IMG/VR virus record: IMGVR_UViG_3300028844_001000
Coordinates: 1-31,737 of that record
Length of the DNA stretch: 31,737 nucleotides
Reading direction: 5' to 3' (one strand)
From: a virus
Of this stretch, positions 451-31,737 are shown one piece after another (position 1 is the first letter of the stretch; each line of letters begins with the position of its first letter). Made by a program: the position numbers and the translations under genes. The notes beneath the pieces were generated by a model. It was not told the origin of the DNA. It did not search any database and saw only the letters and a list, made by a program, of their open reading frames with translations.

Positions 451-1101
451 ATGAGTGTAGCCAGAGACATAAGCAGACAAACATCGAGACAAACTGTAAC
501 TCTAACAGCAAGTCAAACTGCTGTCACTGTTACTGGTGGATTTAGTAGCTCTACCGTAGAGGTATATCTAAATGGAGCCAAACTTATTCAGGGTTCAGAC
601 TATACCCTAAACGGAACTAGTAGCATAACATTAACGCAGGGTGCTAGTGCTGGAGATATTATTGAGTTTGCAATTCGTAATAGTTCTAACTCTGGACTTA
701 GTGCTGTTAACACTTCAGAAATTGTAGATGGGGCTATAACAGAAGACAAACTTTCTGACAGTTCTACAGAAACTGAAAATGTGCAAAGAAGAATTGCTGC
801 TGCTTGGGTGAATTTTCAAGGTAATGTTAACCCCGCAGTTATAAGAGATTCTTATAACGTAAGTAGTGTTACTGATAATGGCGCTACTGGTCTATGGTTT
901 GTTAATTTTACTCGCAATATGGCAAATGGTAACTATTGCACACAAGTCACACAGCATCATGCCACCGGCATTACTTGGAATGTGGGACCAAGCGTTAGCA
1001 CTTCAGACGTTTCTTACGTTCAAGTATCTGCTTCCAGAGATGGTGGAAGCCTTTATAACTCAGAGATAATGTGCGTAACTGTATTTGGAGAATTATCATG
1101 A
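451..1101 (+). CDS. tail-fibre-like virion protein
   Basis: Encodes 216 residues. The ATG lies two bases after the previous stop with a GGAGA ribosome site about six bases upstream inside the previous gene. Residues 15-65 form a beta-rich module with the repeated style seen in phage fibre N-terminal regions (VEVYLNGAKLIQGSDYTL, then SITLTQGASAGDIIEF). A short linker (EIVDGAITEDKLSDSS) resembles fibre shaft connectors. Residues 112-216 form a C-terminal domain beginning AAAWVNFQG and containing SYNVSSVTDNG and LWFVNFTRNM, a pattern common at the ends of phage fibre proteins. A related C-terminal domain occurs in the protein at 3031-4026. No signal peptide or membrane segment is seen. The stop overlaps the next gene's start (ATGA), so the two are probably translated together. 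Likely an adsorption or appendage protein; the exact place on the particle is unknown. Confidence 0.7.
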   Translation: MSVARDISRQTSRQTVTLTASQTAVTVTGGFSSSTVEVYLNGAKLIQGSDYTLNGTSSITLTQGASAGDIIEFAIRNSSNSGLSAVNTSEIVDGAITEDKLSDSSTETENVQRRIAAAWVNFQGNVNPAVIRDSYNVSSVTDNGATGLWFVNFTRNMANGNYCTQVTQHHATGITWNVGPSVSTSDVSYVQVSASRDGGSLYNSEIMCVTVFGELS

Positions 1102-2497: not shown

Positions 2498-3019
2498 ATG
2501 TCGTGGCAAGGTCAAATTTCAACAATGGTGCGTTATTTAATTAATGATACTGATCCTACATCTTATACATATAGCGCCAAAAGATTAGAAACAACTATTC
2601 TTGTTGCTGCTCAACTCTTGAGTACTGAAACTGATTTAAATTACACATACACTATCAATGTGGAACAGTGTCAGCTTACACCAGATCCAACCGATGTTGG
2701 AACTAAGGATGATGATTTTGTAGCCTTAACTAGTCTCAAGTCTGCTTGTATTATTTTAGGTGGAGAGATAAAGAAAGAGTCTGCCAATGCAATTTCTATT
2801 AAAGATGGACCATCTGCTATAGATTTAAGAGGCGTAGCTGGAACTCTAACTGGTTTATATACAGACTTGTGTGCCAAATATGACAAATTATTGTTAGATT
2901 ATAAGGCGGGTAACAGTATAGCTGGACATGCTATACTTGGTCCATACAGTCCGGGCAGTGATTTTGTGAAACGATCATACTCAGATCCAGACCTTCGTGG
3001 TGGATATTTTAGAAACTAA
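2498..3019 (+). CDS. probable head-tail adaptor (connector) protein
   Basis: Encodes 173 residues with an AGGTG ribosome site before the ATG. The N-terminal helix-rich segment (MSWQGQISTMVRYLINDTDP, then YTYSAKRLETTILVAAQLLS) and the middle segment (DDDFVALTSLKSACIILGGE, followed by GPSAIDLRGVAGTLTGLYTDLCAKYDK) follow the usual shape of phage adaptor proteins, which sit beneath the portal and bridge to the head-closure ring. The C-terminal tail (GHAILGPYSPGSDFVKRSYS) is extended and Pro/Ser-rich, as often seen in connector proteins that reach into a neighbour. Its position ahead of the probable head-closure, neck and tail-completion genes fits. Two fibre-like genes separate it from those partners, which is unusual. 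The assignment rests on pattern and gene order. Confidence 0.55.
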   Translation: MSWQGQISTMVRYLINDTDPTSYTYSAKRLETTILVAAQLLSTETDLNYTYTINVEQCQLTPDPTDVGTKDDDFVALTSLKSACIILGGEIKKESANAISIKDGPSAIDLRGVAGTLTGLYTDLCAKYDKLLLDYKAGNSIAGHAILGPYSPGSDFVKRSYSDPDLRGGYFRN

Positions 3020-3030
3020 AGGAGACCAAA

Positions 3031-4026
3031 ATGGCAGCTTCAAGTAAAACGGTTACAGAGCTAGTAAATAATATTAACAATAGAATACCAGATAACAATG
3101 CTGGTCAAATTAGCGCTAAAGACGTTAGAGAAACCATGCGTGATGTTGCTTTCTCAATTCCATACATAGTAGCTAGTGGCGAGTGGGACGTTGGCGGTAA
3201 AGAATTTATTAATGATGTAAGACTCAGAAGAACAAGTGATAACACTGATGGTGGTACTCTGATTGTTCAATCTGGCATTGTATTTGAAAATAATGGCAAT
3301 CCAGACGGTACAGCCTTGCAGACCAGACCTTACCTTGGCCCCGGTGGAATTAGCCATGCCGAACTTAGCAATCTTACAGGTCTTTCAAATGACCATCATA
3401 CTCAGTATTTGAGGGTAGATGGAATCAGAACTTTAACTGGAGATTTTGGAACGGATAGTCACTTTATATCTTCTTCAGGAGAAGGTAATACTACTGCTGG
3501 GCATGGCATTCAATTTGAATACGTTGATACTAACACGGAGCTATTACATGTAGGCAATGAAACACAAATCAAGTTTGATTTAGATAATAGTATTATGTCT
3601 ACTGCAAAATCTAATGCTGCTGCTTGGGTCACATTCAATGGTGTTTCTGGCGTTGGTGAAGCTAACACTTTGACTGTACTTAGCTCTTACAATGTCAGTG
3701 CTGTGAAACGTGTCACAGAAGGTGGCGTTCCACAGGCTGGTAAATTTAGAATTTATTTTAAACCAAATACTTTTGGTGATACTCTTGGTCATTCTGGCAT
3801 CTGCGCCATAGGCAAAAGTAATGGTAGATCTAGTAACTCCAATGCTGAAGCTTTTGATGAAAATACTGTAGCATGTGTTGTTAGAAATACTGATTATGTT
3901 TCCTTTAACATTCTTGATGAAAGTAATCAATATGTTGATGGAAAAGTTAATGATCTAGTAGTCTTTGGTATACCTTCTGGTGTAACTTATTCAGATAGCG
4001 TAACTGTTGGCTATCAAGCCTCTTAA
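3031..4026 (+). CDS. fibre-like virion protein with AAAWV C-terminal domain
   Basis: Encodes 331 residues after a strong AAAGGAGA ribosome site. The N-terminal 50 residues (TELVNNINNRIPDNNAGQIS, AKDVRETMRDVAFSI) form a helical segment of a type seen at the anchoring end of phage fibre proteins. The middle contains the shaft-type motif DHHTQYLRVDGIRTLTGDF near residues 127-145. From about residue 193 a C-terminal domain begins AAAWVTFNG and includes SSYNVSAV and a closing VNDLVVFGI strand. This domain is related to the end of the protein at 451-1101. There is no enzymatic motif. The gene lies inside the neck-gene cluster, so it could form neck or head fibres (whiskers) instead of tail-tip fibres; that is inference. 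Confidence 0.7.
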   Translation: MAASSKTVTELVNNINNRIPDNNAGQISAKDVRETMRDVAFSIPYIVASGEWDVGGKEFINDVRLRRTSDNTDGGTLIVQSGIVFENNGNPDGTALQTRPYLGPGGISHAELSNLTGLSNDHHTQYLRVDGIRTLTGDFGTDSHFISSSGEGNTTAGHGIQFEYVDTNTELLHVGNETQIKFDLDNSIMSTAKSNAAAWVTFNGVSGVGEANTLTVLSSYNVSAVKRVTEGGVPQAGKFRIYFKPNTFGDTLGHSGICAIGKSNGRSSNSNAEAFDENTVACVVRNTDYVSFNILDESNQYVDGKVNDLVVFGIPSGVTYSDSVTVGYQAS

Positions 4027-4044
4027 TATTAAAGGAGTTATACT

Positions 4045-5421
4045 GTGGCTCAAAATGCAACTACCCTAAATGATCGTGTCAAACAGTTGTCGTATATTAC
4101 TGGCAATGGAGACTATATAGAGCTAGCAGATGGTGCAGCTAACGGTTTTAGTGCTTTTAGAAGGCATTACTCTCATGATGATATTGTTTTCTACGCCATT
4201 ACTGATGGTACACAATACGAGGTTGGCTCAGGCTTATTCAAAGACAAGGATCATAGCAGTGTAGACGCATTTGTTGTAGACTCTATATTCAGAAGCCCTT
4301 TTGCAAGTAGTAATCCTGACAATAGTAAAATTAATTTTGGAGCAGGCACAAAAGAAGTTTATAATACGTATCCAGCTACCCATGCCGTAATTATGGGATC
4401 TGGTCTAAATTCTAGCTTAAACACCCCACAGCGTCATGGAATTGCTGTTTGGGACTCAGAAAATATCTTAAACTATTTTTCTAATTTAGTATTCAAAGAA
4501 GCTGGTGGCATTGGTATCAATCAGTCTAATCCTTCTTACGGTATTGACTTGGGAGGTCCAGCTTCTGATGTCTCTTCTAGAGTCAGAGCTTCTGGATATT
4601 ACGTTGGTCCTACCGGAGCTTACTTTGAAGCTAATACGGCTGGAGCAAATAGTACTGATGTCGGCCTGTGGTACAGAAGTTCTTCTAACTATGCTGGAGG
4701 TCGTCAGTTTGTACACTTTATGCCAAACCAGACAAATGCTATTACTGGTTCCGATTTGGTTCTAGAAAACAGTGGCGAAGTAAATGAAATACTAAGATTT
4801 AAAAAACAAAGTGCAGCAACAGTATTTGCTGGACCAGCGCAAAATTGCGGTAGTCCTCCTTGTGCCGCAGATTATCCAACATTTAGAGTTCTACATAGCG
4901 GAGATATTCCTGATCTTGCTGCTATATATGGAACTAGAGTTTACATAGATACTACATCTGGAAATTTAACAGCAGAAATTGATGCAGATGTTTTAGCAGC
5001 ATCTGGCACTTTAGGTAACTCAATTAGCGGTGTTCAAACTAATCTAGACAATCACATCTCTACGTTTGAAACAGATTTTAATACCTTTGAAGTAGCTAGT
5101 TCTGGAAGAATAGATACCTATCTAGATAATGCTTCTGGAATATTATTTCCAATAACTAGCACAGAAGCAGCTACTATTAACATGACAGCTGGTGATTTAA
5201 CAGAGTATACCTTTACTGTAAATGGCGTTTCTGCTACTGATAATTATACTGTCAATGCTTCTCCTTCTGGTTTAGCTGGAGGAGCTGGATCATTCAGCAG
5301 TAAAGTTCTCATAGGTCATGGTTATGTTTCTGCTGCTAACACTGTAAAGCTAAACATGTATGCTAAAGATAACTTTGGCCCGACAGCTGTAACATTCAAC
5401 ATATCAGTATATAAGATGTAA
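4045..5421 (+). CDS. fibre-like virion protein, GTG start
   Basis: Encodes 458 residues from a GTG codon with a good AAGGAG site seven bases upstream. Residues 1-130 form a module common in marine phage fibre proteins: NDRVKQLSYITGNGDYIEL, a GFSAFRRHYSHDDIVFYAIT stretch, TQYEVGSGLF, and NFGAGTKEVYNTYPATHAV. The middle is Gly/Ser/Asn-rich with repeated short strands, suited to a trimeric shaft. Residues about 310-370 (SGTLGNSISGVQTNLDNHIS, then FETDFNTFEVASSGRIDTYL) are probably coiled coil. The C-terminal 90 residues (EAATINMTAGDLTEYTFTVN to VTFNISVYKM) form a beta-rich tip. Its stop is two bases from the next start. Virion fibre is well supported in style; place on the particle is not known. 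Confidence 0.72.
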   Translation: MAQNATTLNDRVKQLSYITGNGDYIELADGAANGFSAFRRHYSHDDIVFYAITDGTQYEVGSGLFKDKDHSSVDAFVVDSIFRSPFASSNPDNSKINFGAGTKEVYNTYPATHAVIMGSGLNSSLNTPQRHGIAVWDSENILNYFSNLVFKEAGGIGINQSNPSYGIDLGGPASDVSSRVRASGYYVGPTGAYFEANTAGANSTDVGLWYRSSSNYAGGRQFVHFMPNQTNAITGSDLVLENSGEVNEILRFKKQSAATVFAGPAQNCGSPPCAADYPTFRVLHSGDIPDLAAIYGTRVYIDTTSGNLTAEIDADVLAASGTLGNSISGVQTNLDNHISTFETDFNTFEVASSGRIDTYLDNASGILFPITSTEAATINMTAGDLTEYTFTVNGVSATDNYTVNASPSGLAGGAGSFSSKVLIGHGYVSAANTVKLNMYAKDNFGPTAVTFNISVYKM

Positions 5422-17041: not shown

Positions 17042-20000
17042 ATGTCTATTCGATGCAATAACGAAACATTTAAAGTTAAACTTGGCGCTAAGTCTAAACT
17101 GTCTGCTAGCATGACTAAGTATGTGCTAGCAAAGGCTAAACCAAGAATGCATGGCAAAGTTAAAAGCTTTGCATCTTTGCAGATTATAGGCTTCGTTAGA
17201 GGTGGTGGAGAGCAAGAGTCTTTTAGTCAAAATTACTTTGGATCTACACAGAACTTTGGATCTACTCCTGATAACTCAGGACCAATGCTTCCAAATATTA
17301 TGCATGGCTCTTTTGGCATAGACTTTAATTCTACTAGAGCGCTGGTTCCAAAACCACCAAGACTGTTGCCTACAGAGTTGGCAGATCTTGATCACCTTGG
17401 AGTTCTCGCTTCAGGATGGCTTGCTGAAAATGATGGGATTATTCAACATTTTCCCAATGCATACTCACCAGAAACTAGTAATAACCATTCGTACACTTAC
17501 GTAGGATCACCTCAATTTAAATATGAAGCCAGAGCTAGGCTTTTATCTGACAGTAAATTTAGGGTATCAGCTAATGTACCAATACAAAATCTTAAAGCTA
17601 AATTCCACGCAGTAGGTAGTCTGAGTTGTAATAAATTTGAAAAGATCAAAGGACATAATACTGTCCTAAATAGATTAGACTTTAGTAATCCATATATACA
17701 AAAATTATATCCTATTAAAGATTTAGATATAGAGAATAATGGTGTTTCTCTGGTTGATAGAGAATTAGGTACTAGTGGTATATATAGAAGTATTGATGAT
17801 GGTATATTTACTGGTAGTGTTATGCAGAATCAGGGCAAGGGATACTTAATCTCTGATAATAATTCTACATATATCACGCCAAGCTCTATTCATACTGATG
17901 GTATATTTGAATATAAATTTGAAGTTACAAAACCTGCAATAACACCTATGGATAGTCTTATATTCTTCAGGGCTACTACCCCGCTGTCTAATTACGATGG
18001 TGATAATCCTCCTGAATACAAAGTTTATGATATTCAATTTTCAGATCCGTCTGGTGAACCTATTGCGAAGTACAAAGATCTTTTACTTACTGGAGAACAA
18101 GACTACAGCAAGATTATTCAAGAGCATTGGTTTACTGCTGTAACAGAGCCTGAAGTTTTCTATGCTGGTACTGGCGTTAACAGAATTGATTATCCTATTC
18201 TTAATGAGCCAAGTGGCTACTCCCTGTCTTTTAAAGTTGATGCTACATGTTTTCATGAACCTTTTAGTAAAGGGTTTACACAAGGGTTTGAAGAAGGTTG
18301 TGATTTAAACAGAAAACATATTGATACAGATCCCGATGATTATCTTGGTTTTGATGGATCTCCACTATCAACTAGAACTCAGGGGTATTCTCTCAATCCT
18401 ACTAATTCTTTAAAAATTTCTGCTATAGAAATTGTAAATGCGGGACTCAACTCAGGTATTATTGAAGACGCTGTTTTGAACGTTAATCTGATGCCACAAC
18501 CTACTGGTCAAAGATTAGAAAGAATCTTATCTCCTACTAAGATATTAACAACCAGCTTTACAAATGATATATATCCAACAGGTATTCAAAGTACTTGGAT
18601 GTCTTCTCCAGACGCTGATGGCAATGTTGTGTACAGCAATTCTGGAGAAAGCGGAGGAATTTTAACAGATAGGCTAGCAAACAAATTTGTGGATGGATGG
18701 GTTACATTAGATAGTATTAACCCTATATCTGCTTCTGGAAAACTTCAATTACAATTTAACAATCGCGCACCTCAAGCTATTAAACAGCCTACGGGTGGAG
18801 GTTTTGGTTTTGGCCCTAAGTATGGAGGATCTGATTTTGGAAGTGCTAAAGTTGAATTAGTTCCAGTTGATGATTCGTTTTTTGTAATAGAAGATATTAC
18901 GTTAAGAGTATCAGCTAAAAAAGCATCTGGATCTGATGACTTTCCAATTGACGTTGTGGGGTATAGCGACGACGGTGTGTTAGCAATTACACCTCAAGTT
19001 GGAGGATTCTTACAAAATGAAGAGTCTGGCGTTGGAACCGTGCCAACAGAATCTGGATTAAGCCTAATAGATGATCTTGGTATATCTACACTGCCCATGT
19101 CTGAGAAGGATTCTTATTTTGAAAGGAGCATTATTCAACACGCCGCAGGAGATCACTATTTAATACCTAGCCCTGTAGTTACTGGAACTTCTTTTGAAAC
19201 ATACGACATACCTCTAAAAATATATCAAGATGTTGTTGAGCTAGGCAGAGGTCCAGATTACAGGATGAGTTCTTATTTTGAGAATTTATTCCTAGATATA
19301 TACCCAATACCTAGTGGCGCTTCTATACAAAGAGCAGACTTAATTATCAAGTATAAACCTGCTGGTGCAATACCACTTGCCACCGCTGGTCGCCTTTCAG
19401 AAAAAGACTATACACGGCGAAATACTAGACTGTATCCAGATGCGAAATCCGCTACTGATGTTATATCCAATAAAATTAATACTTCACTGTCTTTGATTGA
19501 AAATATTCCTCATGGCTATACATATTTAGAAGATACACTTAAGACTAATTATTCTAGAAGATGGAGAGGATGTACTGGTAATGTTGATAGCTCCGCTTTT
19601 GATGCAGAAGCTTTTGATTTTTCTGTTGCTAGAAGCACAAGAAATCATCCATTCCTTCTTGGGTTTTATGATTTTAATATTCTTGCAGTCAATGGAGCAG
19701 GTCAGGATATAGTCAAAGACACTAATGGTGAAACTGTATCTGGTGTATTTAATTCTAATATGTCTGAAAGCTTGACTAGAAACATTGGCCTCAGATTTAA
19801 TAGCTCTGGTCTGTTTCCTAGTAACGTCCGTTCCTACAAGAGTATTGATTGGTGTCAATCTGGTCATGAGTTAGAAGGGCAAATACTTGATTCATATGAT
19901 AATGCGCTTCGTTGCTCTGGTGTTGATGGACACTTAAACTTTGGAAACACGCCTACTTCTAGCGGGTTTGCTGTATATACAAGGTTCTCCCCAGATGTTA

Positions 20001-23000
20001 CAGTCAGTGGAACTAGTCCTAATTACAACCTGTGGAACTCAGGTGTTATATTTAGTAAATGGGACAATGGCAGTAACTTAGAATATGCTTTAGGATATAA
20101 AGATGGATACTTGACAGCATATGCAAGAAATAATGTTGGTACTGTATATTCTATATCAGATACATCTCTGTATAGCACATATCAATATCCATTATCTACT
20201 CTTGTAACTTACAATGCATCTGGAGATAATAAATTAAGATTATACGCATACAATGAATTATCATATGAGTCCACTGCTCTTTGTGCTACTTCTGACGCTT
20301 TTGTTATGCATAGCGGAAATAGTGATTTAACATTTGCGCATTCTGCTGGTTCTGGTGTTGGATTTAATTGCTTCATTCATGAGATTGGAATTTCTGATGT
20401 TAATTCTAGTGGTAACTCTAATCTAATTGAAACCGGAACTCCAGAGGCTTCTGAGCAAGAAGAATCTGTTGTAGATTTCTTTAAATCTCAAGTTATTAAT
20501 TTCTCCCTTGGTAATGATAACTTGTGGGAGTTTGTAGACGAAAAGACAGATGATTGGAAATTAGGTTCTTACAAATACTGCCACTTCTCGCCAGACTTTG
20601 ATGTGATGTCAAAACGTATTGGCAAAGATTATATTCAACACACTTTCTATAATCATGGTCAGTCATATCCACAGTTGACTAATATGACTCTTCCTGAATC
20701 TGTACCTACCTCTGGAATTGCTTATCATACTCAAATAGAAAATGATATGCTAAGAATTAATCTGTCAGGTAGAGAAGACAGATTCTTTGCTATTCCTCCT
20801 AGAATTCAAAAGAACCTTCCTAGAAACTATATGTTTGCGGAAGATGCTCTAAGAGTTAATACTATAGTACAGCACTATTCAGATGTTGATATTGAGTGGC
20901 CCGATGGCAAACAGGGAGTAAAGGTTATAGCGAGTTTATATACTCCAAGAAAAGAAAGCCTTGTAGCCCCAACAACAAACTATGGTCTAGTCAGTAGAGA
21001 TGTGCATTATGTCACACCTGAAGATTGCTGGCTTAAACTAAAGAGTAAATTTACTCTAGGTCAATACAACGATACAGAATCCGAGCCTTGGTCTGCGTTT
21101 AATAAACTGATCTCTAAGAGAGAGTTTGAAGAAAACTATTTCTCTAGGGATATAGACGACATGTTTGTACAGTATGACTTAGTTTACCCATCTGGTTCAT
21201 ATGAAGTTTCTGAACTAAAAATTCATTCATTAGATATATCTATGAATGCGTTGCATTATGAAGAAAATGTAAACACGCAGCTTAACATTTATAACAGTGG
21301 TGAGGCGTATCGTGAAGATTCTATGAATCTAGTTTGGGCATCTGGCTCTGTAAAGGGTGTTTTGTCTGTTGGTAATTTTGCTCAAATGCCTGACGAAAAG
21401 ATGTTTGGCAGTTCTCTTACATTGCAAGATCTTTCGTGCAACTTGTATACCAGCGGGAATAATTATACTTCATACAATGATGATATGCATCTGTTTGCCT
21501 CTGGCTGGGCTGGTCAAGATGAGTCTTTAAATTTACAGATTGTGGGTCAAACTACACACAGTGGAATGCTCAATCATTACACATTTGGTGGATATGGCAA
21601 TGAAAACACATCTATAGCCCTCGTCTCTGAAGGTTATTTTGCAAACGCTAAGAGGAAAAGAGAAAGAATTGGTATGTTCACTCGCGGCGTTAACGCTGAA
21701 GGTAGTGATGTGACTATTTCTACTGATTATGTAAATATGTTTATTCTTGGTAGTCCTCCTGCTACCTCATATCCAATTACTGCTTCAGAATTATTTAATC
21801 TATATACTATTGCTCCTCCTCCAGCTCCAACAACTATAAGCGATAATATTGGATTGTTTATTGAGCCACGCAAGACAGAAGAAACTATTGAAACCTCTTT
21901 GAATATGTATGCCTTCCATGAGCAACCTATAGCTAGTGAAGAAGGACAGCTAGAATCATTCACTTGGAACGGTCAAAGTTATGGATTTGAAATATACGTA
22001 GATGATAATAAATATGCTTCTATTCCAGCTAATGATGAGATTAGAGGTGTAAACACAATGTGCTATGGAGACTGCAACACATTGGCAGGAATTCCGTGTA
22101 CAGAAACAGCTATTGTTACACACGACACTACGTGGTATACACCTGAGTGCGTAGAGGGTGGAATCATTAGACCTGTTAGAGTCTATACCAATCCAGAAGC
22201 TGGCTATGACAAACAGTATTATGGTATTAGAAAATATACTAACCTTATACCGTATGCTCCATACTCTATTAAGATTACTGGTCAAAGTGCTGGTGATACA
22301 GTATTAGACGTACCCCGCGAAGTATCTGAATGGAATTATGGTAAATCAGAAATAGACAATGGAGTTATTAGTCCAGAAGTCAATTACTCTGGAATACAAA
22401 TTCTAGAATCTGTAGCCAATAGAGCTGCTGATCATAAGTTTGGCAAATCAGTTTCTGCCCTTGGAGATCTTTTAGCTATTGGAACTCCATTTGCTGATAC
22501 TACAGTTGGACTTGATGACATAGTTAACTCAGACACAGCATCATATCCAATAGTTGATCATGGTAAAATATATGTATATAGAAGAAATACAGCTCCTACT
22601 GGGTACAATTGGACTTCACAAGATGATCAAGCTAACTGGTCTGTAGAACAAGAATTAACACTTCCAGTTGGCTGGAGAAGAGATTATTTTACTACTGAAA
22701 CAGCTACCTTCTTAGATGACGAAAACAAACTATTACCATTCACTGGTGAAGTTAGAAATTGGAGAAACTCGGGTGAAGGAAAACAATTAGGATATTCTGT
22801 AGATACTGCAAAGGTTGGAGAAAAAGAAATAATTGTTGCTGGCGCTCCCGGTTCAAAATGGACCAGAACCTTTCCTCCTATTGCTTCTACGCCGGTATCT
22901 ATTGGTTTAATGGTATTTAACAATGAGTTACAACCAAATATCAGATCTTGGCAAGACGTACTCACAGAACTAAAGGGCAGAGATTTATTATATAGATACT

Positions 23001-26000
23001 TTTCCAATCCACCTATTGAGTTCGATATAAAAATTATGCTTTTGGAACCACACTTGGGTTCTCCTGTTCCATTTGAAGTTTCTGAAGAATTTAATGATCC
23101 ACAACCTACTTTTGTTACAAAACACTTAACTACTAGACATTGGAATCTGAGTCCCACAAGTCAGGAATGGATAGATGCTGATGCAGTAATGCTTCAGGAA
23201 ATGAAAAATATTTTCCATGCAACTTTCCCGATAGATGCCAACGCTGCACATAGTGGCATTCCTCCTTTGATGGGATTCTTTATAGATGACTCAATATCAC
23301 TGGGTACTAATAAGGTAGGATATTACGATAATGGATTTAAGGGAGCGCTGAATAAGTTTATTGATTATTATAAATCATATTCTTATAATAATGGTGTTAG
23401 GGAATTTGGAACTGGCTCCAATGGAGTTGCTGAAGCTGGACAAGCAGCAGAGGGTTATACAAATGTAACAATTTCATCCCGAGAAGCTAACTGGGTTAGT
23501 CAATCTGTTGCATGTTTGAAAGATCTTACTACAATTTCCAAGATAAAAGCTGCTGGTAAATCTAAACTTATAGCTAATGATATAGGCACGTTTAATCCTA
23601 ATGCTTCTGAATTTAACAATCCACCACCTAGTGGCGGTTCTGTTTTCATATTTGAAAAAGACAGTGCCAATTCCTCTTTTGAGTTGAAACAATCAATCGA
23701 ATCACCAGTAACTTATACAGATGATGTATCTGACAGATTTGGTCATGATGTTTCTATCAGCAAAGATGGCAGTATTATAGTTGTAGGATCTCCTTACACA
23801 GAAAGTGCTGTTCAAATTTTTGAGAGAAATTCTTTCTACGACACTATCTTACAGAATGCAGTGTGGTACAGCTTACCTCGTTTCTTAGCAGCTGAACATG
23901 TTAGAGAAAGAACCAATGCAACGTTTGGCGAAGGCTATACATTATATAATGAGTATAATGAAAAGCGTGGCACGATGAATGATCTTGCACTTGCTGAATA
24001 TATTTACGATCAAATGTCAGAAAGTTTGAAATACAGTTTTTACAGAACTTATGACGTAAAGCCCTACTGGAAGATCAAAGAATTGAGTTACAGTAATACA
24101 TATCCAGACAAGGGCGGTTCTTGGAGTCAGCTATACGGAAGATACATTCCAACTCCACGACTTGGATACAGTGTGGACACAAACGATGATGGAAGTTTAG
24201 TTGCTATAGGTTGTCCAACTGATAGTCTTGGCGAACGCGATAAAACTATTACTTGGTTTAGATATGATCAAGGTCAGACTCAAGATTGGCAGTGGCAAAA
24301 CTACACGAACGCTGGAGCTGTGAGACTTTTAGAAAGTAGAGATTACTATCCTCATAAGAGAAAGGCTGTTGAGTTCTATAAGTTTGGAAATTTGCATGAA
24401 GACTTAGCTCCAGATGAAGATAAATATCTATATTTTGATAATATAAAACAAACACTAGAATCTACGAACATTGATTACTCTAGAACTAGTTTCGCAGAGG
24501 ATAAAAAGATACCAGATGACGCAGGAATGGCTTTAATTATAACTCCAGCCTTAAATGCTGCTAGTGACGAAATTATAGATAATATTAAAGAATGGTTATC
24601 TAAAGGGGATAGAAATTTAGTTCTTGTTGGAGATGATCCATCTTACGAGGGTAATGGCGTATTTAACAACTCTGTTAATGTTATTAATTATATATTAGAC
24701 AAATTAGATATTAATATGAGAATTGAGCCTGCTAGAAATCAACAAGAAGCATTGCTTAATTCTGCAAACCAATTTCTTAATGTGAGAAATTCATATGTAC
24801 CTCAAAAGTCTACGCCAAACTTGGGGGAAATTAATGGTTATGACGGAGGTTTTTTGAAGGGGTACGGAGTAGGTGATATTAAACATCATAGAGAAGATAT
24901 TGTAGATCTTTATAGTTGTTCATTGCCTTACGGGATGCGCCGTTCTAGTGATCCATTTGCTATACTAGAACAAATTGATGGAGTTAGTGCCAATGAAGCT
25001 GGAAGAAAATTACTTTACAGAGACTTGCACGACAAGTGTAATTTACCGATCAAACACGAAGGTGACTTGAGAGCAGAATATGCAGATCAGTGTGTTTATG
25101 TCACACCAAAGGGCGAACGAACTTTCATCACTTATTACAGAAATCTTAGTTACGCATATGGTAATTTCAACACTGCCAACTGGAAATGTAATGATCCTGA
25201 CATTCCACCAATAACTACTGATCCAAGTTTAAGAGACAAAAACGCACCAGTGCCTATGATGGCAGCTTACGAGACGGTGACTAAGACGGTCAATGTTCCT
25301 GAAGTCCCTGCCCGCGAAGAAGTCGAACGATACATTTCTGGTTATCGTGACAATTTTAATACTAAGTACGATTTTGGTAGTACGCCTTACTCTGGCATTT
25401 CGTTTATGTGGACTGCCGATCCAGAGAATGAAGGCTCTTATAGCGGAAATTACGTAGATATTATTCACAATGTGGGTAATGTAACTAGTCAAAGTTTATT
25501 CTTCGACCCAGCAGTCACAGCTTCTTCTGCTGGCATAGTTGATGCTGTACTGGGCGCACGGGCTACCGTTGACTTTCAAGATGTTGAATCAACGAATCCA
25601 GTAGGATTCTTTGACACGATGGGAGAAGAAAATTATCGAGCTGGCACAGTAGAAAATTCTCAAGTACTTCTTATAGCAACTACTTACACAGAACGTAAAG
25701 ATGTTTTACTTTCTTCAGAGAACGACATGAACTTGCTAGCATATTTTAATATTTTAGCATATGGTAAAGAAATTAGTCCTAATGGATATTATGCCAAGAT
25801 AGCCCAGCTGGGAGGATTTACAAATAGGGCTTCTTACACAGATGGTTACATTTATAGTGATATAGCTTTCCAAATGTATGGCTTGGGTATAGATACTAGG
25901 GATTTAAATGTTGATCTCGACAACTTAAATGATTCCTCCAGAGGTTATGATACTGCTTGGATCGCCAACACTGACCAAATGCCTTCTGATCAAGATATAG

Positions 26001-29000
26001 CAGAGCTTAAAGAATTTTTAGATAGTGGAAACAAAAAGCTTATAATTACTTATGGTCAAGCTCCTAATAAGGAAGAAAAAGATACTGATCTTAGTCCTCA
26101 CATGCTGAAGTCGGCAGAAGTAGCGCAGTATATTTGCGAGCAACTTGGAGTTACGATGAAGCCACGTTTCTTAAGTGGCAAAAATAAATATGCTGATCTT
26201 AGCGATATGTCAGGTAGGCCAGAACTGAGGAAAATGGTCTTACTTCCACCTGCTTCCATAGGTGTGGATGACGGAGATTTTGTTATAAATACACCTCCTT
26301 ATCGTGGTAAGCGGCGCATAGGAACATATTTTAATCATAACTTAATTCCTATAGAACTAAATAGTGGCAAGCGACTCGCTTACTTTAAACATGCTGTTCA
26401 TGACAAAACTACTGTACAAAAAGGCAAGCCGAACTTAAATACTGGTATTACTAAAGTAACATTTAATGTTCCAGATCATTCTGCTGTAGCCACTGATACT
26501 AGAGAAGCAGAAGATGATATGTATTTGTTTAGAATGTTTTTCTCTATGGCTAGTTTAACACCACTAGAAAAATACGACATTACGGTATACATAGAAAATA
26601 GTCAAGAATACATTAGAACTAATCGTGAAACTAATCAACCTATTAGGTTAGACAAAGATACTATTTATGGTAGTCGAGTAGGTATTCCAGATGGAGATGA
26701 TTTTGGTGAGGTACATTCTTACTTAGTAGATGCTGGAGTAGAACAAGAATTAAAAACAAGACAACAGTATTCAATAGATTTTCAAGCTCCTAGTGGTAGC
26801 CAGATTAACTTATATTTTACGGGTTATGAGCATTTTCGAGAATTGATAGAGAATCCACAAGAGGTAAGAACTGTCAGGCTTGTTGGAGTTTCTGGCGTGA
26901 GGATTCCATTGTCTTCTGAAACCACGAATAAACCTATACCTATTTATGATAACAGAATTATCACACATCCATCTGTTCCTGCATACTCTTATGAACAAGA
27001 TGTCATGCGTCAAATCAGTACCGATAGCTCTAAATACTGTGCTGAAAATAATTCTATTGTTTGTGCAGAGGCAGACCCAGCTGGGTATGGAGTTGCTGGT
27101 GATGCTCCTGTTATTGCAGATGGACCAGTTGTTGTTGCTCAACAGGTTTATGATCAGGGTGGATTCTTTGCTGGTCATCGCAAGTCTAGAGTCACTGTGA
27201 TTAGTGATGCTAGTATGATTCAAGGAAGGAATGTGCTTGATCAAGATGGAAACGGCATTGAAGGTCTTGCTCCTTTCCTAGCAAGCCTATATCCTTATAC
27301 TTATGAATTCGACGATGATGAGTTCTTTAGCTTCTTCGAGGAAGACGAAGACTTTGTTCAAACTAGATTCTATTCCTCATCTTATAAATTAATTTCTCCA
27401 GAAAGAGCAAGTCCAAGTAGATTAGTTAATGCTTTGCCATCTAACTCTGGTCTTAATGCTAGATTTGGTGGATACACTAGCGCAGGTCTTGGTGTAGATC
27501 AATACTCTGATACTGAGGGTAAGAAATTTATAATAACTCCTCCGGGTCGAGAGATACCTTATCAGCCATTTGATGGTATGCTGCAATTGATGGAGGCTAT
27601 AGATCCGGGTAAATTTAGAAAACTACCTGAAGAACTTCAGCTGCCTCCATCTCACTTCTTCAGTATACCTCCATACACTTACGGTGGGCTGACTAAAGCA
27701 CAATACGAACAGAAGTGGTATGTAGATGAGTTCTTGCCATATCAAACTTATTGGTCTTCAACTTCTAAGATACAAGATACATATAATGGTCAAACTTATG
27801 TAGATGCTGGATTGTCGGAAAGAATACCTCCACTACTTAGAGCAGCTGGATATGATCATTTAGATTTAGATGTATTTAATTCTGGATACCCCGGAGATCT
27901 ATTTGGATATTCTGTAAAGATACATAAAGATAAATTATATGTTGGTTCACCATTCACACCATATAGTGGCGAGTCTATAGTTCCTTGGTCTGGTATTGTT
28001 AGCAACAACGCTCTTAGTGGCGTGGAAATAGGATACAACGGTGGAGCTGGCGCTGTCTATCAAATAGAAAAAGTTGGACCTACTGGAGATGGAGTTGGTT
28101 CAATTCAAGGTTCCCCAGAAGTGACTGCTGGATTACCTTGGAAGACTGTGAAGAAGTTTAGACCAGAAGAACTTAATGTTGGATTCCATAATATCAACGC
28201 TGTCGATCTATCTGGAATTGTTGGCAATCATTCTTATACAGATGAAATGATAAATGCCAGTGGATTTGTTTCTGATATGTTTGGTTATGATATAGATCTA
28301 GCTGGCGATTTAATGGCTATATCAGCACCGGGGCATGACTTTGAAGTGTTCTTTGAAGAGAACTCTGGAGAGTTCGTCAATAAGGCGTTCAACAATCAAT
28401 TCCATATTACATCTAGAACTCGTCATGACCTAGCTCTTTCTAGTAACAGAACAGCTTATCCAAATAGCGGGGTGACTATTCTGAATAATGGAGCAATATT
28501 TACATATGAAAATAAGATTAATAATTGGGGAAGTAAGACTCAGGAATGGTCTCAGTTGCAAAAACTCAACGCTCAAGGAGGAGCTTCTAAAGTCCAAGGT
28601 TCTGGAGAAAACTTATTCTTTGGTCAGTCTATCAGCCTAACCAGATCCAGCAGATCAGATGCTGATTATATATTGGCAGCAGGAGGTCCAAACTATGATG
28701 AAAGTTCTGCAAATAAAATAGGCGCAGTGTATACGAATGATGCAATGCTCAGGAAATTAAGACCCGCATTTTCACATCCAGATACATCTCTAGCTGGTAG
28801 AGTGTTTGGTAATTATAAAGATCAAACAGAATACGTAGAATTTAGCTTTACAAACGGTAATACTCCAAATGCTTTGCATACCTTTGAGGGTACAGTATTT
28901 GCGAATGAGCAAGGCGAGATATTCATTGAGGCTTCTGGTCAGGACAAAGTAGAACGTGGCTACGTGGTTCACAGGCCGTTTATCAAACAAATTAGAGGTG

Positions 29001-29287
29001 TTTATCAGTTTGGCGAGGGTGTTAGAGACAATATTGCATTATATGTTGACGGTAAGCCTTTTGACGCTTCTGGTGTTATTAACCTGTTCAGTAAGGCTCC
29101 TGATGTTGGAAATGTGTATAATAACATAGGATTATACGGCATATCAAGTTTAGACAGTTCTGGAACATTGCATTTATATGCTAGTGGAATTAATACAGAT
29201 ACTTCTTCTGGCGTTTTGAATGTGACAACCAGCGGCTCGCTTAGTGGCGGTACTGGCATCTTAGACTTTTACGGATACGGTGGGTAA
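17042..29287 (+). CDS. giant multi-domain adhesin-like tail protein
   Basis: Encodes 4081 residues, very large for a phage protein, ten bases after the tape measure stop; probably a tail-tip host-recognition or scaffold protein. No signal peptide is seen. Residues 1-950 are beta-rich and unassigned. Residues about 956-1121 resemble a LamG/concanavalin A-like domain (GVDGHLNFGNTPTSSGFAVY, NKLRLYAYNELSY). Residues 1405-1640 hold short repeats ending in Leu-x-Leu-x-x-x-Gly. A Cys-containing strip (CYGDCNTLAGIPC) lies near 1680. Seven FG-GAP-like units start near 1800, 1916, 2233, 2374, 3621, 3747 and 3860 (examples FGHDVSISKDGSIIVVGSP, FGYDIDLAGDLMAISAP). Two glutamine-amidotransferase-like repeats lie at about 2490-2570 and 2967-3047. 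The last 85 residues again carry Leu/Tyr/Gly short repeats. Domain calls are by eye; function is inference from context. Confidence 0.72.
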   Translation: MSIRCNNETFKVKLGAKSKLSASMTKYVLAKAKPRMHGKVKSFASLQIIGFVRGGGEQESFSQNYFGSTQNFGSTPDNSGPMLPNIMHGSFGIDFNSTRALVPKPPRLLPTELADLDHLGVLASGWLAENDGIIQHFPNAYSPETSNNHSYTYVGSPQFKYEARARLLSDSKFRVSANVPIQNLKAKFHAVGSLSCNKFEKIKGHNTVLNRLDFSNPYIQKLYPIKDLDIENNGVSLVDRELGTSGIYRSIDDGIFTGSVMQNQGKGYLISDNNSTYITPSSIHTDGIFEYKFEVTKPAITPMDSLIFFRATTPLSNYDGDNPPEYKVYDIQFSDPSGEPIAKYKDLLLTGEQDYSKIIQEHWFTAVTEPEVFYAGTGVNRIDYPILNEPSGYSLSFKVDATCFHEPFSKGFTQGFEEGCDLNRKHIDTDPDDYLGFDGSPLSTRTQGYSLNPTNSLKISAIEIVNAGLNSGIIEDAVLNVNLMPQPTGQRLERILSPTKILTTSFTNDIYPTGIQSTWMSSPDADGNVVYSNSGESGGILTDRLANKFVDGWVTLDSINPISASGKLQLQFNNRAPQAIKQPTGGGFGFGPKYGGSDFGSAKVELVPVDDSFFVIEDITLRVSAKKASGSDDFPIDVVGYSDDGVLAITPQVGGFLQNEESGVGTVPTESGLSLIDDLGISTLPMSEKDSYFERSIIQHAAGDHYLIPSPVVTGTSFETYDIPLKIYQDVVELGRGPDYRMSSYFENLFLDIYPIPSGASIQRADLIIKYKPAGAIPLATAGRLSEKDYTRRNTRLYPDAKSATDVISNKINTSLSLIENIPHGYTYLEDTLKTNYSRRWRGCTGNVDSSAFDAEAFDFSVARSTRNHPFLLGFYDFNILAVNGAGQDIVKDTNGETVSGVFNSNMSESLTRNIGLRFNSSGLFPSNVRSYKSIDWCQSGHELEGQILDSYDNALRCSGVDGHLNFGNTPTSSGFAVYTRFSPDVTVSGTSPNYNLWNSGVIFSKWDNGSNLEYALGYKDGYLTAYARNNVGTVYSISDTSLYSTYQYPLSTLVTYNASGDNKLRLYAYNELSYESTALCATSDAFVMHSGNSDLTFAHSAGSGVGFNCFIHEIGISDVNSSGNSNLIETGTPEASEQEESVVDFFKSQVINFSLGNDNLWEFVDEKTDDWKLGSYKYCHFSPDFDVMSKRIGKDYIQHTFYNHGQSYPQLTNMTLPESVPTSGIAYHTQIENDMLRINLSGREDRFFAIPPRIQKNLPRNYMFAEDALRVNTIVQHYSDVDIEWPDGKQGVKVIASLYTPRKESLVAPTTNYGLVSRDVHYVTPEDCWLKLKSKFTLGQYNDTESEPWSAFNKLISKREFEENYFSRDIDDMFVQYDLVYPSGSYEVSELKIHSLDISMNALHYEENVNTQLNIYNSGEAYREDSMNLVWASGSVKGVLSVGNFAQMPDEKMFGSSLTLQDLSCNLYTSGNNYTSYNDDMHLFASGWAGQDESLNLQIVGQTTHSGMLNHYTFGGYGNENTSIALVSEGYFANAKRKRERIGMFTRGVNAEGSDVTISTDYVNMFILGSPPATSYPITASELFNLYTIAPPPAPTTISDNIGLFIEPRKTEETIETSLNMYAFHEQPIASEEGQLESFTWNGQSYGFEIYVDDNKYASIPANDEIRGVNTMCYGDCNTLAGIPCTETAIVTHDTTWYTPECVEGGIIRPVRVYTNPEAGYDKQYYGIRKYTNLIPYAPYSIKITGQSAGDTVLDVPREVSEWNYGKSEIDNGVISPEVNYSGIQILESVANRAADHKFGKSVSALGDLLAIGTPFADTTVGLDDIVNSDTASYPIVDHGKIYVYRRNTAPTGYNWTSQDDQANWSVEQELTLPVGWRRDYFTTETATFLDDENKLLPFTGEVRNWRNSGEGKQLGYSVDTAKVGEKEIIVAGAPGSKWTRTFPPIASTPVSIGLMVFNNELQPNIRSWQDVLTELKGRDLLYRYFSNPPIEFDIKIMLLEPHLGSPVPFEVSEEFNDPQPTFVTKHLTTRHWNLSPTSQEWIDADAVMLQEMKNIFHATFPIDANAAHSGIPPLMGFFIDDSISLGTNKVGYYDNGFKGALNKFIDYYKSYSYNNGVREFGTGSNGVAEAGQAAEGYTNVTISSREANWVSQSVACLKDLTTISKIKAAGKSKLIANDIGTFNPNASEFNNPPPSGGSVFIFEKDSANSSFELKQSIESPVTYTDDVSDRFGHDVSISKDGSIIVVGSPYTESAVQIFERNSFYDTILQNAVWYSLPRFLAAEHVRERTNATFGEGYTLYNEYNEKRGTMNDLALAEYIYDQMSESLKYSFYRTYDVKPYWKIKELSYSNTYPDKGGSWSQLYGRYIPTPRLGYSVDTNDDGSLVAIGCPTDSLGERDKTITWFRYDQGQTQDWQWQNYTNAGAVRLLESRDYYPHKRKAVEFYKFGNLHEDLAPDEDKYLYFDNIKQTLESTNIDYSRTSFAEDKKIPDDAGMALIITPALNAASDEIIDNIKEWLSKGDRNLVLVGDDPSYEGNGVFNNSVNVINYILDKLDINMRIEPARNQQEALLNSANQFLNVRNSYVPQKSTPNLGEINGYDGGFLKGYGVGDIKHHREDIVDLYSCSLPYGMRRSSDPFAILEQIDGVSANEAGRKLLYRDLHDKCNLPIKHEGDLRAEYADQCVYVTPKGERTFITYYRNLSYAYGNFNTANWKCNDPDIPPITTDPSLRDKNAPVPMMAAYETVTKTVNVPEVPAREEVERYISGYRDNFNTKYDFGSTPYSGISFMWTADPENEGSYSGNYVDIIHNVGNVTSQSLFFDPAVTASSAGIVDAVLGARATVDFQDVESTNPVGFFDTMGEENYRAGTVENSQVLLIATTYTERKDVLLSSENDMNLLAYFNILAYGKEISPNGYYAKIAQLGGFTNRASYTDGYIYSDIAFQMYGLGIDTRDLNVDLDNLNDSSRGYDTAWIANTDQMPSDQDIAELKEFLDSGNKKLIITYGQAPNKEEKDTDLSPHMLKSAEVAQYICEQLGVTMKPRFLSGKNKYADLSDMSGRPELRKMVLLPPASIGVDDGDFVINTPPYRGKRRIGTYFNHNLIPIELNSGKRLAYFKHAVHDKTTVQKGKPNLNTGITKVTFNVPDHSAVATDTREAEDDMYLFRMFFSMASLTPLEKYDITVYIENSQEYIRTNRETNQPIRLDKDTIYGSRVGIPDGDDFGEVHSYLVDAGVEQELKTRQQYSIDFQAPSGSQINLYFTGYEHFRELIENPQEVRTVRLVGVSGVRIPLSSETTNKPIPIYDNRIITHPSVPAYSYEQDVMRQISTDSSKYCAENNSIVCAEADPAGYGVAGDAPVIADGPVVVAQQVYDQGGFFAGHRKSRVTVISDASMIQGRNVLDQDGNGIEGLAPFLASLYPYTYEFDDDEFFSFFEEDEDFVQTRFYSSSYKLISPERASPSRLVNALPSNSGLNARFGGYTSAGLGVDQYSDTEGKKFIITPPGREIPYQPFDGMLQLMEAIDPGKFRKLPEELQLPPSHFFSIPPYTYGGLTKAQYEQKWYVDEFLPYQTYWSSTSKIQDTYNGQTYVDAGLSERIPPLLRAAGYDHLDLDVFNSGYPGDLFGYSVKIHKDKLYVGSPFTPYSGESIVPWSGIVSNNALSGVEIGYNGGAGAVYQIEKVGPTGDGVGSIQGSPEVTAGLPWKTVKKFRPEELNVGFHNINAVDLSGIVGNHSYTDEMINASGFVSDMFGYDIDLAGDLMAISAPGHDFEVFFEENSGEFVNKAFNNQFHITSRTRHDLALSSNRTAYPNSGVTILNNGAIFTYENKINNWGSKTQEWSQLQKLNAQGGASKVQGSGENLFFGQSISLTRSSRSDADYILAAGGPNYDESSANKIGAVYTNDAMLRKLRPAFSHPDTSLAGRVFGNYKDQTEYVEFSFTNGNTPNALHTFEGTVFANEQGEIFIEASGQDKVERGYVVHRPFIKQIRGVYQFGEGVRDNIALYVDGKPFDASGVINLFSKAPDVGNVYNNIGLYGISSLDSSGTLHLYASGINTDTSSGVLNVTTSGSLSGGTGILDFYGYGG

Positions 29288-29291
29288 TTAA

Positions 29292-31022
29292 ATGAGCGTG
29301 GGAGAATCTCAGAATAAATCTATACAAATATATAATGGGAAGTACTACAAAGCGCTAGTGCCTACACCGCTAGCTGGTATAACTCATACAAATAATCGTA
29401 ATGAAATGGGGTTTTTATATACAGAAACCTCTATTACTCTAAATGGCTATTCTCTGGCTTCCTCATCTGAGATTGATCGTTGTGAAGATCTACCTATGGA
29501 CAGCTGTATTGAACCTTCTAGTTCAGGTGCAACTCCTGTTGGTGCTATGTTTGAAGCACAACGCAAGATAGAAGAATTGTTTAATGGGAATGATTTAGTA
29601 GTTCAGTTCTGTGATACTAAGGGTAGAATTAAAAATAGTTATGCCTGCCAATTAGAAAGCATTAGTTTTGGTGAAGGAACTTGGAATCAGTATATGCCTT
29701 ATACTGTCACCCTGAAGTCTTATCAAAGCAACTTCACAAGTCAAGAGGGTACATATAGTGCAAGGCCAAGGATTGGCACATCTGGAGTGTTGACAGATTT
29801 CAATGACAGCATCAGCGTCGAACCAATTGTTGGAGAGTATGGATTACACAGAGCTAATCCTGCTAATCAAGATCAAGAACCAATTGGTCAAATTTATTAT
29901 AGGGTTTCTAGATCTATTACAGCATCTGCCAAAACTTGGACTAATAGAAGAAGAGTTCAAATTCATGATGATAAACAACATAATAAATTTAAAGACACTG
30001 ATGGTATAGCTCCGGGCTGGATAGTTGCTCATGACTACCTTGAAGACTATTTAGCAGACCCAACAGAACCTCATCACAGTACGGAATTCCTTCTGCACAG
30101 TGGGCATTGGCTTGCTAATAGCACTAGTACAAATAGAATGTATCCATATAATTTTACAAGACAAACTGAGATAGACAAAGCATCCGGTAGATATGGTTTT
30201 ACAGATAGTTTTGTATTAGCGCCAAAAAATATTAATGCTATGGAGACATTTGATATTTCTTACAGTTCTTCTGCTGGAGAACACACACCAGTTGTGACCG
30301 TTAATGGTACAATCCAAGGACTAACACGGTTGGGTATGCATGACGCTGGAAGAAAATATACTGATTTAAGCAATAGCACAATAGGAACTGCTCCTAATAA
30401 TGTGGAGATTGACGGATCTGGTCAAATAGATAATGCTTTCATTGCATATAGTCAACTAACTAAAAATGGAAGATATGGATTCTGTAGAATGTTTAGTAGG
30501 GCGCAACAAGCAACTTCTCAACATTTGAATACGAGTCCCAGATCCATTACTATGGGTAGTAATGATGTGGCAGGTCAAGTCACTTATTCTCTTGAGTACG
30601 ATGCTAGACCTACTAACTATTTTGAAGGCGTTGCTTCTGAAAATATTACTGTGGATGACACATATCCGGGTGATATGTACACGACGATTCCTATTCTTGG
30701 AAGACCCACTGGACCAATTTTACAGTATCTATATGGTAGAACAGAATACAAAAGAACACTGTCGGTTGAACTAATAATAGATTCTTCATCTACCTCTAAT
30801 GCTGCAACTTTTTCGTATGCTAAAAGGGAGACAGCGTTAGGTAGTAAACCCAGCTTGCGTCCGGGTTTCAGAGAACAAATACAAGGACTGATTAATTTAT
30901 ATAGTCCAGCCAATGAGCCGGGGATTAAAAATTGGTTTCAAGATCCTCCTCAAGAAAGTTGGACACCAAAAGAATGCAGATATACTTTTACTGTTACTTG
31001 GACATATGAAATTAGTGAGTAA
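29292..31022 (+). CDS. probable distal tail or tail-hub virion protein, 576 aa
   Basis: Encodes 576 residues; the ATG lies four bases after the previous stop. The N-terminal 150 residues look like a distal tail module: NKSIQIYNGKYYKALVPTPL, ITLNGYSLASSSEIDRCEDL, a helix (MFEAQRKIEELFNGNDLVVQ) and QLESISFGEGTWNQYMPYTV, i.e. a barrel with one packed helix. After a long middle with VSRSITASAKTW and FTDSFVLAPKNINAMETFDI, the end has strand-rich sequence (GQVTYSLEYDARPTNYF, ECRYTFTVTWTYEIS). Distal tail proteins form the ring joining tube and tip and anchor adhesins. The place after the tape measure and giant adhesin genes agrees. The family was not recognised with certainty. Confidence 0.55.
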   Translation: MSVGESQNKSIQIYNGKYYKALVPTPLAGITHTNNRNEMGFLYTETSITLNGYSLASSSEIDRCEDLPMDSCIEPSSSGATPVGAMFEAQRKIEELFNGNDLVVQFCDTKGRIKNSYACQLESISFGEGTWNQYMPYTVTLKSYQSNFTSQEGTYSARPRIGTSGVLTDFNDSISVEPIVGEYGLHRANPANQDQEPIGQIYYRVSRSITASAKTWTNRRRVQIHDDKQHNKFKDTDGIAPGWIVAHDYLEDYLADPTEPHHSTEFLLHSGHWLANSTSTNRMYPYNFTRQTEIDKASGRYGFTDSFVLAPKNINAMETFDISYSSSAGEHTPVVTVNGTIQGLTRLGMHDAGRKYTDLSNSTIGTAPNNVEIDGSGQIDNAFIAYSQLTKNGRYGFCRMFSRAQQATSQHLNTSPRSITMGSNDVAGQVTYSLEYDARPTNYFEGVASENITVDDTYPGDMYTTIPILGRPTGPILQYLYGRTEYKRTLSVELIIDSSSTSNAATFSYAKRETALGSKPSLRPGFREQIQGLINLYSPANEPGIKNWFQDPPQESWTPKECRYTFTVTWTYEISE

Positions 31023-31025
31023 TAC

Positions 31026-31737
31026 ATGGCTGTTAAAACTTACAATGTATCGTTTGGTAGTACTGGCTTCTATAATATTGATGGCAATGTAAATCCATCA
31101 TTAAGTTTTATCGACGTACAAGATGGTAACTCAGTACATTTTGATATTGATGCTATTGGACACCCTTTTTATATCAAATCGGCTTTGGGTGAGGGATCTT
31201 TTGGTTCTTATGATGATGATGTTGATGTAAATGGAGTACAATATGGTCGTATTGTTTTTACAAAAACTGGAGACACGCCCGATTATTTATATTATCAATG
31301 TGGTAATCATGGCGGTATGTGGGGCCAAATATATGTAAGAGATTACGCTCCATCACCGCTTCCAGCGACAACATTTCCACCAACAACTACTACCGCTAGT
31401 CCTACTACAACGACACCAGAACCTACAACTACATTACCTCCACCTTACGAGCCTACTACTTTACCTCCAACTCAAAGTATAGATCCTTATCGTCCCTCTT
31501 GGGTACACACGCCAAATAATACTCCATCCTCTTTATATAGTCCGGGCTTTGTTTTCTCGTTGGCTTCAGTCTCCAGCTCTAACAGTTTCCCAGCTACTAC
31601 TGTTTACACCAATACATCTAACAAATACAGATGGGGTAGCAAATACATAAATGCTGGTGCTACTTGGGACATGACTAGTGCCTCAGTTGCTAAAAATATA
31701 GATGCTCAAACTCCGGGTGAATATCATAGGATGGGCG
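31026..31737 (+). CDS. cupredoxin-domain virion-region protein, 3' partial
   Basis: An ATG three bases after the previous stop opens a frame that stays open to the right edge, giving at least 237 residues. Residues 1-105 read as a cupredoxin (plastocyanin-like) domain: a strand start (YNVSFGSTGFYNID), VQDGNSVHFDIDAIGHPFYI with H46, and YLYYQCGNHGGMWGQIYV with C92, H95 and M98. This is the His, Cys-x2-His-x2-Met ligand set of type 1 copper sites. No signal peptide precedes it, so it is not built like a secreted electron carrier. Residues about 112-147 are a Thr/Pro-rich linker (PTTTTASPTTTTPEPTTT). A further Ser/Asn/Tyr-rich domain follows and is cut off. The likely setting is a virion or adhesin tip module; copper binding is inferred from ligands only. 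Confidence 0.72.
   Translation, partial: MAVKTYNVSFGSTGFYNIDGNVNPSLSFIDVQDGNSVHFDIDAIGHPFYIKSALGEGSFGSYDDDVDVNGVQYGRIVFTKTGDTPDYLYYQCGNHGGMWGQIYVRDYAPSPLPATTFPPTTTTASPTTTTPEPTTTLPPPYEPTTLPPTQSIDPYRPSWVHTPNNTPSSLYSPGFVFSLASVSSSNSFPATTVYTNTSNKYRWGSKYINAGATWDMTSASVAKNIDAQTPGEYHRMG

Follow-up and report, generated by a model that had tools for sequence, protein, structure and literature searches.

Textbooks describe cupredoxins as electron carriers and as domains of oxidases. In fungal laccases, the first His of the HPFH motif is a type-1 copper ligand. Amicyanin, which carries PHN at its first His, is the soluble periplasmic partner of methylamine dehydrogenase. Rusticyanin and AcoP, the best structural matches of the phage domain described here (E 4.4e-6 and 9.1e-6, TM up to 0.61 by query length), are free exported electron carriers and not virion parts. 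Meanwhile, iron-binding HxH motifs have been reported for the fiber protein gp37 of T4 and proposed for marine phages (PMC11705849). The cupredoxin fold and its copper site are already known. In the open-licence literature to which our search was limited, we found no paper that describes cupredoxins in phage particles or as a recurrent module of virions.

The window (the whole stretch of DNA analyzed, an IMG/VR virus record of 31,737 nucleotides) contains a plus-strand run of tail genes, in which a tape measure, a 4081-aa protein and a 576-aa protein are followed by a last ORF, made of a cupredoxin domain, a Thr/Pro linker and a C-terminal region cut by the contig end (Table 1). The earlier note had described a type-1 ligand set in this domain, H46 in GHPFYI together with C92, H95 and M98 in CGNHGGM, and we found these residues exactly there, with correct coordinates and numbering. 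It was also right that a signal peptide is absent and that a Thr/Pro linker follows the domain; both are evident from the sequence read directly, which begins with MAVKTYNVSFG. In a model of the full-length ORF, residues 1-108 were confident and residues 155-237 mostly had a pLDDT below 50. Residues 109-237 had no relatives in phage records or IMG/VR, the first 1000 aa of the 4081-aa protein had none in phage records, and no close relative of the window phage was found. No homologues of the rest of the protein or of its 576-aa neighbor were found, so the virion position of the protein is deduced from the order of the genes and from the relatives of the domain.

Table 1 Features of the tail gene run and of the cupredoxin ORF, in window coordinates (A2, the 71-member family alignment; secondary structure by DSSP)
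Feature	Positions	Strand	Basis or remarks
Tail fiber-like ORF	451-1101	+	In the tail gene run, which also has a Collar domain ORF
Tail tape measure protein, 2056 aa	10862..17032	+	PF10145 1.4e-21; PHROG 4211 1.3e-19 and others
4081-aa protein, probably tail tip or fiber	17042..29287	+	Role suggested by position after tape measure; weak FG-GAP-like match
576-aa protein	29292..31022	+	Directly upstream of cupredoxin ORF; no relative in Pfam, PHROG, phage records or IMG/VR
Cupredoxin ORF, at least 237 aa	31026..>31736	+	ORF call and translation; open to contig end
Cupredoxin-fold domain, residues 1-105	31026..31340	+	AlphaFold2, Foldseek, PHROG 677/9158, A2 profile
H46, predicted first copper ligand (GHPFYI)	31161..31163	+	Loop just before strand 48-51; invariant in A2
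C92, predicted copper ligand	31299..31301	+	Last residue of strand 87-92; invariant in A2
H95, predicted copper ligand	31308..31310	+	Loop 93-98, before strand 99-105; invariant in A2
M98, predicted axial copper ligand	31317..31319	+	Same loop; C-x2-H-x2-M spacing; invariant in A2
Thr/Pro/Ser-rich linker, about residues 109-150	31350..31475	+	Sequence; without secondary structure, pLDDT about 60

Structure prediction and sequence comparison show a predicted cupredoxin fold, conserved ligands and a fiber or virion setting throughout the family. The prediction that the earlier note had proposed for residues 1-105 was run with AlphaFold2 on the 71-member alignment and returned a confident cupredoxin-like model (pLDDT 93.7, pTM 0.87), an eight-stranded Greek-key beta-sandwich that resembles solved cupredoxins. 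When this model was compared to the PDB with Foldseek, all 50 matches listed were copper proteins of the cupredoxin fold (TMq 0.44-0.61), among them rusticyanin, AcoP, nitrite reductase, laccase, azurin and plastocyanin. In the window domain, the first His precedes strand 4, and the Cys-His-Met set begins where strand 7 ends and extends into the next loop (sequence and DSSP). This placement along the predicted strands fits the topology of a type-1 site. Searched against a viral structure library, the model matched fiber and connector proteins of cyanophages as well as beta-sandwich proteins of giant viruses. The giant-virus matches in BFVD (A0A481YVH3, A0A481Z7Q7 and A0A7D3QVK4) comprise "beta-sandwich proteins" of a deep-sea metagenome Marseillevirus and Pithovirus and a blue copper protein of Fadolivirus.

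Taken alone, the window domain had no useful match to Pfam or to PDB sequences. The profile search against cupredoxin families, also proposed in that note, succeeded at the level of the family: the family profiles A1 and A2 matched type-1 copper proteins of the PDB (plastocyanin 2plt, 2.6e-4; nitrite reductase 9cck, 2.1e-5; also amicyanin and rusticyanin). Single family members did so as well (amicyanin, 1.7e-4 with phage member L006; plastocyanin, 1.4e-3), and three of them (L007, L185 and L187) exceeded the Pfam cut-off of Copper-bind (PF00127, plastocyanin/azurin). The window copy, which itself belongs to A2, matched the A2 profile at 4.7e-29. Together with the structural matches, the family profile and these Copper-bind members uphold the claim of a cupredoxin domain. 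In addition, 37 of the 71 members, the window copy not among them, matched PF25489 (At5g54830-like domain, best 5.4e-7), whose name derives from a plant protein. The window domain also matched the C-terminal ends of PHROG 677 (baseplate wedge tail fiber connector) and PHROG 9158, at 9.6e-10 and 1.3e-8. These matches are limited to the last ~80 positions, and the window protein is otherwise unrelated to these families. Judged by this likeness, the same module is already present inside PHROG 677 and 9158, where it is not named a cupredoxin.

Among the described copper proteins, rusticyanin resembles the window domain around its ligand H85, where GHSFDI corresponds to GHPFYI, and in a YYYxC motif that precedes the last ligands; it differs in its N-terminal extension and its C-x4-H-x4-M spacing. 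Amicyanin (PDB 1aac and others) has a C-x2-H-x2-M spacing identical to that of the phage domain. The register of the first ligand depended on the alignment. The A2 profile pairs the two GHxFxI motifs and sets H46 on H85, whereas single-sequence alignments to amicyanin and plastocyanin pair the ligand His with F48 instead of H46; with hhalign, alignments to rusticyanin and amicyanin fragments were confined to the C-terminal ligand part. Since H46 is conserved, sequence comparison favors H46 over F48 as the first ligand, in the register of rusticyanin and of the laccase type, in which the first His of HPFH corresponds to H46.

The ligands are among the best conserved residues of the domain. Only seven columns are invariant among the 71 divergent members of A2 (H46, P47, F48, Y90, C92, H95 and M98). 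All four ligands were kept in 147 of 151 distinct copies, two of the four exceptions being truncated by contig ends; among 64 representatives that share less than 75% identity, 62 kept the set. Because short peptide patterns had been used to find the loci, and some of these patterns hold ligands, we checked the copies that lacked any ligand-containing pattern and had a ligand-free one: the full set was present in all 19 distinct copies. C-x2-H-x2-M occurs twice in the six frames of the window, once in the domain and once on the minus strand, and shuffling the domain yielded H...CxxHxxM in 40 of 200,000 tries. The conservation observed in these alignments is more than chance, and H46, C92, H95 and M98 are predicted to be a complete set of type-1 copper ligands.

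In the tail fiber copy of S-B43, S-B05 and RN05-S, H46, C92 and H95 are replaced by F, A and V, and M98 is kept. These ligand-less natural versions are located at L009:3398-5743, L194 and L195. The joint loss of three ligands is as expected if the ligands serve one site. Meanwhile, the S-B43 clade retains the fold without them, which suggests that the metal is dispensable in some fibers, and it provides a natural ligand-less control.

Relatives of the domain are found in many aquatic phages. A tblastn search with the window domain retrieved 39 phage records with identities of 32-46%, every one of them from a cyanophage or a marine single-cell virus. In the cyanophage records, the genes that carry the domain are mostly annotated as tail fiber, baseplate wedge tail fiber connector or long tail fiber proximal subunit. 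The baseplate connectors are of the gp10 type, and the domain also occurs in further proteins of the virion region. The window domain as a query found no relatives in an IMG/VR scan, and a 14-member alignment was too divergent for a pattern scan of this resource, so a closer cyanophage member was taken as the query. The P-SSM2 copy gave 382 loci, 80 of which were kept, and the P-SCSP2 copy gave 76. When bacterial and archaeal genomes were scanned, 24 loci were added, mainly from marine Bacteroidota and Myxococcota. Altogether, 214 copies were present in 195 ORFs, with up to three per ORF, and the domain recurs across myoviruses, podoviruses, an uncultured long-tailed phage and bacterial surface lipoproteins.

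Viral copies sit within large ORFs (median 625 aa), and 55 of the 138 distinct viral ORFs have collagen-like repeats. Among ORFs with closed 5' ends, a crude rule detected signal peptides in 2 of 129 viral and 11 of 20 cellular ones, and nine of these 20 cellular ORFs had a lipobox-like motif. The contrast in export signals suggests that bacteria export the domain and that phages build it into particles. In marine Bacteroidota and Myxococcota (L170-L193), the domain ends many exported surface proteins or lipoproteins with LRR, Ig-like or InlB-type repeats. The phage-bacteria tree is poorly resolved as to the direction of transfer (seven label changes, at least two of them forced). A contig from a Gammaproteobacteria MAG (L183:301-2250 and 2513-4921) carries two copies in adjacent fiber-like ORFs, and since one of them groups with a viral copy with a support of 99, this contig probably represents a prophage or a phage that was misbinned. 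In four cyanomyovirus structural-region proteins (L004:2156-4333, L005:2282-4333, L006:2705-5164 and L008:2222-4234), the cupredoxin domain is fused to a subtilase (PF00082) and is C-terminal in three of the four; to judge by their domain composition, these fusions are possible virion-borne proteases.

Further information on the virion setting comes from phage S-SCSM1, in which the gene SSCSM1_231 (L011) carries the domain with all four ligands and is annotated "long tail fiber proximal subunit (virion protein)". Mass spectrometry of purified S-SCSM1 particles detected 45 proteins, of which ORF213 and ORF214 are named (PMC9602691). In the genome record, the "virion protein" note is found on ORF213 and ORF214 and is absent from some known structural genes, e.g., those of the head completion protein and one baseplate hub subunit, suggesting that this note marks detection by mass spectrometry. 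Read in this way, the annotation places one family member, S-SCSM1_231, in a phage particle; for the window protein, we infer the same location.

The function of such a module can be explained in several ways. It might be a cupredoxin-derived beta-sandwich used for adhesion or spacing, which binds carbohydrates or proteins of the host and in which the ligands hold no copper, or another metal such as zinc. The natural variants that lost three ligands and kept the rest agree with this. So does the company of the domain, since the collagen-like repeats and the S74 chaperone and subtilase domains found with it are typical components of modular fibers. Moreover, phage assembly takes place in a copper-poor, reducing cytoplasm. 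However, none of the four ligand positions varies among the 71 members, whose identity to the window copy is only 28-44%, and since a domain kept for adhesion only is not expected to retain the exact type-1 set, we consider this unlikely. By analogy with the Trojan horse hypothesis of iron-binding fibers, which concerns the HxH motifs (PMC11705849), the particle could instead use the domain to bring copper to the host or take it away, either delivering it to a copper uptake protein used as a receptor or scavenging it. Most relatives come from cyanophages and other aquatic phages, but some are on contigs without a link to copper-demanding hosts, and a type-1 site grips copper tightly, a poor fit to delivery, which makes this explanation quite improbable.

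A complete type-1 ligand set would also suit a redox-active blue copper protein, i.e., a plastocyanin-like protein taken over from the host as an auxiliary electron carrier, and cyanophages are known to carry photosynthesis genes. The window protein, however, lacks a signal peptide, continues beyond the domain with a linker and a large C-terminal region, and is encoded in a tail gene cluster, while its relatives are internal fiber modules with up to three per protein. A carrier of the plastocyanin or azurin type was rejected, as the protein is not of the exported, small and soluble form, and we regard electron transfer as very improbable. The earlier view of the domain as a particle module rather than an electron carrier is borne out by its relatives, which are parts of tail fiber or virion proteins without signal peptides, one of them tagged as a virion protein (S-SCSM1_231). 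Finally, a generic phage Ig-like domain with a chance likeness to cupredoxins would explain why the window copy alone lacks sequence matches in Pfam and the PDB; this is refuted by the family profile, the fold search and the invariance of the ligands, and we give it almost no credence.

Based on these findings, we postulate that residues 1-105 are probably a type-1 copper cupredoxin that acts as an outward-facing module of a tail tip or fiber protein, where it stiffens or clamps the fiber or a receptor-facing domain. The protein would be made in the cytoplasm without export, leaving the site probably empty inside the cell. As export is lacking and free copper is scarce in the bacterial cytoplasm, the site would probably be loaded after lysis, with copper drawn from the debris of the cell or from the water around it. 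The metal would then link the first His loop to the loop that connects the last two strands, and the result may be a rigid, protease-resistant module outside the particle, on a flexible Thr/Pro tether, which could space or present the receptor-facing part of the fiber or add to fiber stability. For the window domain, we infer copper occupancy, the time of loading, the stiffening and the receptor-facing role.

The presence of relatives in the tail fibers of many marine and freshwater phages suggests, from their sequences, that such particles can carry copper. We tentatively propose, with a confidence slightly short of even, that a class of aquatic phages has genuine type-1 copper sites on its tail fibers, many per particle and loaded with copper after lysis, so that the particles are copper-binding ligands in the water and the metal serves fiber stability or host recognition. 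Should copper indeed be bound, aquatic phages would extend the range of known fiber domains by a metal-clamped building block, and phage particles would count among the organic copper ligands of sea water, which would parallel the idea of iron-binding fibers. The HxH fibers of T4 gp37 and of Alteromonas phage R22Y are alike in having metal-binding residues in a virion fiber (PMC11705849); they differ in that they hold octahedral iron on the axis of a trimeric fiber, whereas the phage cupredoxin has a predicted type-1 copper site within a single domain.
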